This document shows, one piece after another, positions 46,031 to 47,286 of a stretch of DNA of 64,000 bases (position 1 is the stretch's first letter; each line of letters starts with the position of its first letter). The notes under the pieces were generated by a model, which ran no database searches, was not told the DNA's origin, and saw only the letters and a list, made by a program, of their open reading frames with translations. The translations under genes were made by a program, and so were the position numbers. Location: the NCBI RefSeq assembly GCF_004297185.1, contig NZ_PGCL01000002.1, forward strand, positions 186,001-250,000, in the 5' to 3' direction. Source of the DNA: Methanofollis fontis (GTDB lineage Archaea > Halobacteriota > Methanomicrobia > Methanomicrobiales > Methanofollaceae).

Positions 46031-46609
46031 TCACCGCCCCTCTTCTCTCCCCTCTCCGACCAGTGCCGCAAATCCCGTGATGAGCCACTCGTTTCGCACT
46101 TCCGGGTGGAAGAGCACGCCATAGATCTCTTTTTCCGGGTGCTGTATCGCCTGCACCCCGCCGTCAGAGACCGCGCAGACGATAAAATCCTCTGGGGGGC
46201 GCACCGAGGAGGAGTGGAGTTCGTAGGCGTTAAAGCGCTCCCGCCCCCCGAGAAGTCCACCGGAGCGGACAGGACGGACCTCTGTCATCCCGATGGCAGT
46301 GCCGGGGACGATCGATCCCCCGAAGACGGCGGCGATCACCTGCATGCCGGCACAGATGCCGAGCACCGGGACAGTGCATTCCCGGATCCACCCGAACCGC
46401 TCGATATCTGCTGAAAATCCGTTGTCTGCCATGGCAGTGCCGCAGAGGATCACGCCCCGGACACTCGCAGGAATGGCGCCGTCAAACTGTGTATAATGGA
46501 GTGTATGCACCTTTATCCCGGCGTCCAGCAGCACGCGCCGGATCGGGTGGACGAACTCATAGGTGCTGAGCGAGTCCTCCTTCCAGCAGAGATCGACGAG
46601 CAGGATCAT
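46031..46609 (-). CDS. Stand-alone class I glutamine amidotransferase
   Basis: The 192-residue protein is a GATase1 domain with the nucleophile elbow LGICAGMQ (C86) and the partner residues in FHPE (H168 and E170), so it should hydrolyse glutamine to ammonia. It has no synthetase domain of its own. Its ATG overlaps the stop of the PP-loop ATPase gene by 4 nt, an arrangement that recalls archaeal split GMP synthase, in which GATase and PP-loop ATPase are separate subunits. The coupled ATPase is, however, a diphthine-ammonia-ligase type. The acceptor is unknown. Confidence 0.88.
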   Translation of the reverse strand: MILLVDLCWKEDSLSTYEFVHPIRRVLLDAGIKVHTLHYTQFDGAIPASVRGVILCGTAMADNGFSADIERFGWIRECTVPVLGICAGMQVIAAVFGGSIVPGTAIGMTEVRPVRSGGLLGGRERFNAYELHSSSVRPPEDFIVCAVSDGGVQAIQHPEKEIYGVLFHPEVRNEWLITGFAALVGEGREEGR

Positions 46610-47286
46610 TTCGGCACCACCGCCGCCCTGACGACCCGGTAGGTGCCATGATGGTTTTTGTAGGTGCGCTCTGCCTCCAGGATCTCGATCCGTCTCGAGA
46701 AGAAGGGTGCATCGGTCACAAAGGTCTCGATCTCCCCTCCCTCGCCGGTGAGAGTGATCCGGTACTGTGCCGCCATACGGCGCAGTTGATCGAGGGCGGT
46801 CCGATCGAGCTCCCGTCCAAGCCACGATTCGTCGAAGGGAGCGGAATAGACGCCGATCACCCATACCCTGAAACCGGCATCGATCAGTTCCTGCATATAT
46901 GCCTCCTGATCGATGTGCCAGAGCGGGTTGAAGCACCAGAGCCCGAGGTCATGGCAGATCCGCTGCACCCGTGTCGCCTGATACACCGATAGGATGGCGC
47001 CAGTGACGATCCCCTCGATGGCGTGCTCCTCAACGGCGATCTGGATCGCCCTTCGCAGGTCCTCCAGTTCCTCTTCCTTCTCTCCTGCCGTCTCCACCTC
47101 CACCAGCGGCAGTCCGGTGGCCGCGGCCTGGAGCGCCGCCAGACGGACGTTCGGGGTGTGGAACATATAACTCTCCGGGTTCTGTGAGACGATCGTGATT
47201 AGGCAGGTCACCTCCTCCTTCTGCATCGCCCGCCAGCATGCAAAGATGGAGTCCTTCCCTCCGGAACAGAGTACGCCGAGTTTCAT
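46606..47286 (-). CDS. Diphthine-ammonia ligase-type PP-loop ATPase
   Basis: The 226-residue protein has the PP-loop SGGKDS at residues 8-13 and the ATP_bind_4 family pattern ESYMFHTPNVRLAALQAAATGLP and EGIVTGAILSVYQATRVQRIC (in outline GAILSVYQATRV). Dph6-type enzymes amidate diphthine on translation elongation factor 2 with ATP and ammonia, completing diphthamide. The start MKLGVLCSGGKDS is clear, although the frame is open upstream. It is followed by a coupled glutamine amidotransferase gene. Confidence 0.88.
   Translation of the reverse strand: MKLGVLCSGGKDSIFACWRAMQKEEVTCLITIVSQNPESYMFHTPNVRLAALQAAATGLPLVEVETAGEKEEELEDLRRAIQIAVEEHAIEGIVTGAILSVYQATRVQRICHDLGLWCFNPLWHIDQEAYMQELIDAGFRVWVIGVYSAPFDESWLGRELDRTALDQLRRMAAQYRITLTGEGGEIETFVTDAPFFSRRIEILEAERTYKNHHGTYRVVRAAVVPK

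Follow-up and report, generated by a model that had tools for sequence, protein, structure and literature searches.

The window, i.e. the whole analysed stretch of 64,000 nucleotides from Methanofollis fontis, carries on its minus strand a pair of genes which overlap by 4 nt. The first, dph6 (46606-47286), starts with ATG and codes for a Dph6/DUF71 PP-loop ATPase (diphthine--ammonia ligase) of 226 amino acids; the second (46031-46609), likewise starting with ATG, codes for a stand-alone class I (triad) glutamine amidotransferase subunit of 192 amino acids. An earlier note had described the locus as a Dph6-type PP-loop ATPase gene overlapping by 4 nt with the gene of a class I glutaminase of intact catalytic triad, and this description was borne out in each respect: the profile scores given below identify both genes, the overlap is an ATGA start/stop junction (46606-46609, minus strand), and the codons of the triad could be read directly from the minus strand, namely that of the nucleophile Cys86 in the motif GICAG (46352-46354) and, within the His168-Pro169-Glu170 stretch (46100-46108), those of His168 (46106-46108) and Glu170 (46100-46102). 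Scans of the locus for promoters, terminators and inverted repeats gave nothing of use.

PF01902 is the sole Pfam domain of the window Dph6 (241 bits), and the archaeal model TIGR03679 (Dph6_archaeal) matches it with 280.5 bits, above the cut-off of 197.3. The protein carries the PP-loop SGGKDS (residues 8-13; 47248-47265, minus strand) and the motif EGGEIE (residues 182-187; 46726-46743, minus strand), which fits EGG(D/E)xE and is of the type given as a mark of Dph6 in the available part of PMC3585130. The DUF71-B12 subfamily was ruled out, since EGGEIE stands in place of its ENGE(F/Y)H motif, and a fusion of a class II glutaminase/AsnB with Dph6 was ruled out for the window protein, which has neither GATase_6/7 nor Asn_synthase domains. 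In the whole genome only one DUF71 (PF01902) match was found, the window Dph6 itself. The genes of Dph2 and Dph5 are present in the same genome, and its aEF-2 has the sequence LHEDAIHRG, which we take to be the diphthamide site; thus the pathway is complete and the window Dph6 is the only candidate for the amidation of diphthine.

The second protein matches PF00117 with 78.5 bits (cut-off 22.8), and this fold together with the Cys-His-Glu triad places it in class I. Cys86, His168 and Glu170 are invariant in an alignment of 32 rows (A1), which was picked without Cys-less rows. Subunit A of GMP synthase (GuaAA) was ruled out, since NF001975 gave 83.4 bits against a cut-off of 198 and the genome has its own, separate GuaA-like match (G000:C3:477261-477728). 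Among the best 80 of 427 relatives in a scan with the glutaminase alignment, the nearest named relative of the window locus is that of a Methanofollis sp. (L094, 59% identity). In two glutaminases of genus g2 (L049, L050) the part of the triad with the Cys is separated from that with the His by long inserts of low complexity.

Pairing of the two genes

When 120 genomes of the order of the window were searched with each of the two proteins, a coupled-type Dph6 (within the order, one that matches the window protein with more than 250 bits) was found in 70, and in 68 of these it is followed directly, on the same strand, by the glutaminase gene; the other two are fragments at contig ends. The gap between the matched stretches is -1 to 188 bases across the 68 pairs, and the value of -1, an overlap like that of the window, occurs in 21 of them, the window's pair counted in. 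Of the 120 genomes 43 carry a Dph6 of divergent type, which matches the window protein with 113-159 bits; none of these genomes has the glutaminase, and no genome of the 120 contains both types. No Dph6 match reached the threshold in five genomes, and G065 showed only a low-scoring DUF71 match of the ENGE(F/Y)H type. In the genus of the window (g1) the coupled type occurs in four genomes (G000, G003, G009, G057) and the uncoupled type in seven (G015, G021, G027, G033, G039, G045, G051), G062 showing a Dph6 fragment only. This mixture within one genus of coupled and very different uncoupled Dph6 (about 35-42% identity between the two types of the order) looks like gene replacement.

The same pairing was observed in the scan of the genomes of named species, which covered all phyla: among the best 80 of 427 relatives, partly overlapping with the 120-genome set, a coupled-type Dph6 stands just upstream of the glutaminase in 79 loci, and the remaining one (L170) starts at a contig end. 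Across 392 genomes searched in the phylum, the true members of the glutaminase scored at least 95 bits, and the background resembling GMP synthase subunit A at most 88.6 bits. Dph6 was found upstream in all 26 regions fetched outside the 120-genome set, which belong to the families f9 (presumably Archaeoglobaceae), f22 (presumably Methanotrichaceae) and f30 and to one further genome of the window's order.

In one f9 locus an IS605/TnpB-type gene (Cas12f1-like TNB domain; L216:1666-2826, minus strand) lies between dph6 and the glutaminase gene, and no other clear interruption of the pair was seen; contig breaks and this transposon-type insertion are the exceptions to the adjacency among the examined members above background. 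The glutaminase frame is split in L226. A coupled-type Dph6 (L251:1008-1739, minus strand) has no adjoining glutaminase; its neighbour resembles, as far as we can judge, a gamma-class carbonic anhydrase, and its genome (G248, 84% complete) gave no match in the phylum-wide glutaminase search. Cut, broken, odd or duplicate loci (L081, L082, L156, L170, L083, L049, L050, L226) were left out of at least one alignment or count, as were L001 (same locus as L002), L151 (holds unknown bases) and L159 (holds X). L228, a GuaA-like gene kept as a control, was likewise left out of at least one alignment or count, and L174-L201 (duplicates of known places, except L187 and L194) stand outside the named-locus listing, the residue-coupling analysis and the nucleophile count.

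The survey of co-occurrence and gene order which the earlier note had proposed supports the reading given there, and neither of the two results which the note had named as refuting it was obtained. Homologues of the two genes are neighbours elsewhere (68/70, 79/80 and 26/26) and are even fused in 13 loci, and the closest relatives of the glutaminase do not serve another known synthetase, as the examined members above background adjoin Dph6. Chance adjacency was ruled out by the recurrence of the arrangement in the 68 genomes and 79 named loci. It could still be argued that the genes are neighbours without any functional link, together by chance or shared descent, given that all members were found in or beside one phylum and the trait may have arisen only once; we regard this as extremely improbable in view of the tight pairing over several families at 40-60% protein identity, the at least two separate fusion lineages, and the Dph6 residues which track the presence of the partner.

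Another question is whether the pair amidates a substrate other than diphthine, e.g. a small molecule, as was proposed for the B12-type DUF71 proteins. The large distance between the coupled and uncoupled Dph6 of the order would be compatible with this, and the available part of PMC3541065 describes DUF71 as not monofunctional. Nevertheless a non-diphthine substrate appears quite improbable, since the Dph6 motif EGGExE is present, the window protein is the sole DUF71 of a genome with Dph2, Dph5 and aEF-2, and the coupled type alternates with the uncoupled one (70 versus 43 genomes, none with both). Furthermore, some of the low-scoring DUF71 matches of the order were retrieved (L072-L077), and these six ENGE(F/Y)H-type proteins are different, none of them adjoining this glutaminase.

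Residues specific to the coupled Dph6

The coupled Dph6 proteins have a signature, Gln108 ... Trp117 Cys118 x Asn120 (46927-46965, minus strand, in the window), which was followed through 99 aligned Dph6 and DUF71 sequences, L251 and three B12-type rows standing outside the counts. All 50 coupled proteins have Cys118, which occurs in none of the 34 uncoupled and none of the 11 class-II-fused ones. Asn120 and Trp117 occur in 92% and 88% of the coupled sequences and in none of the uncoupled or class-II-fused ones, and Gln108 in 96% of the coupled, 6% of the uncoupled and none of the class-II-fused. L251 keeps the Gln, Cys and Asn of the signature but not the Trp. In sequence these residues come after Tyr102-Gln103, which in our alignment correspond to the Y103/Q104 placed near the modelled EF2 interface in the available part of PMC3541065; from this position it is suggested that the signature residues may line the ammonia entrance.

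On a Dph6 tree of 99 chosen rows, made by a quick method, 2 changes are enough to explain the coupled state, whereas 33.2 are needed on average after shuffling. Residue coupling between the subunits, analysed on 160 paired rows with an effective number of 86, did not stand out from shuffled controls: the strongest uncorrected value was 4.3 sd, and three shuffled pairings gave 4.0-4.2.

Natural fusions and the proposed function

In 11 Methanothrix-type loci Dph6 and the glutaminase form a single open frame of 437-465 amino acids, and fusions of the same type occur in two genomes of the window's order (464 and 476 amino acids, counted from a Met near the match), where they sit on a tree branch separate from the Methanothrix-type ones; L151, which reads as one frame across unknown bases, was kept outside the fusion count. 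The AlphaFold2 model of one fusion (L120, Methanothrix sp.; model m094901c22973) has a mean pLDDT of 93.5 and a pTM of 0.91, and the linker of 33 residues is partly of low confidence. A pTM of this height despite such a linker implies that the mutual placement of the two domains is well defined in the model. The Dph6 half matches PF0828 and PH1257 (Z 33.7 and 32.2), and the glutaminase half the glutaminases of GMP synthase and anthranilate synthase (Z 23-24). The accompanying structure alignment (A3) has 141 rows from L094-L173, consisting of 11 fusions, 65 Dph6 and 65 glutaminases.

Together the two genes very probably encode a glutamine-dependent diphthamide synthetase, which would have two subunits and in some species one chain. 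In terms of sequence this proposal is based on the pairing, the fusions, the signature present in the coupled proteins only, the intact triad and the replacement by uncoupled Dph6. The Dph6 subunit would adenylate the diphthine carboxylate on elongation factor 2, and the class I glutaminase subunit would hydrolyse glutamine and pass the ammonia to Dph6; we infer a physical complex, ammonia transfer and use of glutamine by the pair in the cell. Since this Dph6 has, in many methanogenic archaea, a dedicated and sometimes fused glutaminase, glutamine rather than free ammonia is probably its source of nitrogen, and a dedicated, glutamine-dependent Dph6 system, which the pair probably represents, is very well supported by the genome evidence. 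The glutaminase is not required for the chemistry as such, because many archaea manage with an uncoupled Dph6.

Where the last step of diphthamide synthesis obtains its ammonia has been an open point since the discovery of Dph6, and the pair offers a concrete two-subunit enzyme for this step, of which the natural one-chain versions are directly purifiable. The residue signature allows the prediction of glutaminase-coupled Dph6 proteins.

Loss of the glutaminase nucleophile

Cys86 is kept in 117 of 144 distinct glutaminases and is replaced by Ser, Gly or Ala in the other 27. The Cys-less ones are all the Methanoculleus-proper sequences examined, the five of the f22 genus g61 (a Methanothrix lineage), L166 and L048. 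Methanoculleus proper has GISSG (12 of 12 from genus g4 in one set and 11 loci in another, the two overlapping), and the five g61 sequences have GISTG or GIATG with His168 changed too. L112 and L116, titled Methanoculleus, keep GICAG, and their sequences group with other genera of the survey. L222 has Tyr in place of His168. Gln90, presumably the usual glutamine-binding position, is changed in 26 of the 27 Cys-less proteins, which is weak evidence alone, because it differs in 17 of the 117 Cys-bearing ones as well. The median dN/dS of the Cys-less genes (0.29 in Methanoculleus, 0.26 in Methanothrix g61) is close to that of three intact sets (0.26, 0.19 and 0.25, from only 7, 10 and 5 usable pairs), so the Cys-less genes are kept under constraint.

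This retention of a constrained gene in the 27 Cys-less cases could mean that the glutaminase subunit is mainly structural or regulatory (EF2 docking, glutamine sensing) and that hydrolysis is not its point. We consider this unlikely: the Cys is present in the other 117, the triad is invariant in A1 (chosen without Cys-less rows), and in other archaea an unrelated class II glutaminase is fused to Dph6, which points to ammonia supply. For the glutamine-dependent synthetase preferred here, the loss means that the dependence cannot hold for every member. In Methanoculleus proper and in the one Methanothrix lineage the partner would now be a non-hydrolysing subunit, and free ammonia is probably used again. 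The glutamine-dependent form of Dph6 predicted by the earlier note is accordingly upheld as a prediction by the pairing and the fusions, but not for the members with a Cys-less partner. The available parts of PMC12776343, PMC5062929 and PMC4919398 present Methanoculleus bourgensis as a methanogen of digesters rich in ammonia; a link between habitat ammonia and the loss of the Cys in Methanoculleus is a suggestion only. Natural active and Cys-less pairs are suited for testing whether the modification of the translation factor tracks glutamine or ammonium supply.

Comparison with known systems

The stand-alone archaeal Dph6 proteins (PH1257, PF0828) share the fold and the PP-loop with the window Dph6 (190 bits; Z 32-34). 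PH1257 is without the coupled signature, having LKVYTPAW where the coupled proteins have LWCFNPLW, and no glutaminase is described for these two in the portions of the publications covered.

Frames of 700-760 amino acids with Dph6 at their C-terminal end occur in family f8 (genera g65, g42, g95, g34) and in f10. Asn_synthase and GATase_7 matches were obtained in all three of these which were scanned (L229, L235, L238), the GATase_7 match of L235 being just under the cut-off, and two of the three have a GATase_6 match too. In one f8 genus, which we take to be Methanohalophilus, the fusions L232, L233 and L235 are without the MC start bearing the class II nucleophile; therefore glutaminase decay may have occurred in class II fusions too.

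Such class II glutaminase/AsnB-Dph6 fusions, from Methanohalophilus and Methanosalsum, were proposed in 2012 to be glutamine-fed, and it was suggested that the ammonia sources of Dph6 vary (PMC3541065, in the part available). With the window pair they share a Dph6 joined to a glutaminase and the proposal of glutamine-derived ammonia. They differ in that a class II glutaminase (N-terminal Cys) and a second PP-loop domain stand N-terminal to Dph6 in one chain of about 700-760 amino acids, in other families, whereas the window-type glutaminase has the class I triad and is encoded downstream of Dph6, mostly as a separate gene. Two unrelated glutaminase classes on one ligase strongly support ammonia delivery. 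The idea that Dph6 takes its nitrogen from glutamine, put forward in the earlier note, is thus supported but is not new in view of the 2012 proposal. The pairing of Dph6 with a class I glutaminase was not found in the open-licence literature, and it is a variant of the already published idea of Dph6 plus an ammonia source.

The nearest known relative of the glutaminase is subunit A of the two-subunit archaeal GMP synthetase (83.4 bits; PDB 1wl8), which shares the split-subunit design with the window pair; the window protein scores far under the cut-off of 198 for that subunit. The yeast Dph6 resembles the pair in having added domains with a proposed role in ammonia supply, but these are YjgF/RidA domains of deaminase type and not a glutaminase (PMC3585130, in the part available). 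A parallel restricted to the Cys-less lineages is offered by human CPS1, which has a Cys-to-Ser change in its retained glutaminase domain and uses free ammonia, as stated in the available part of PMC4655335; CPS1 belongs to another synthetase family, which is not of the PP-loop type. A broader picture can be drawn, to which we assign an even chance: diphthamide synthesis in these archaea would repeatedly have changed its source of nitrogen, glutaminases of class I and of class II having come to Dph6 by independent recruitment, and in lineages whose habitats are rich in ammonia, Methanoculleus among them, the glutaminase once recruited would have been kept as a Cys-less pseudoenzyme subunit gating or stabilising Dph6, an archaeal counterpart of the mammalian CPS1.
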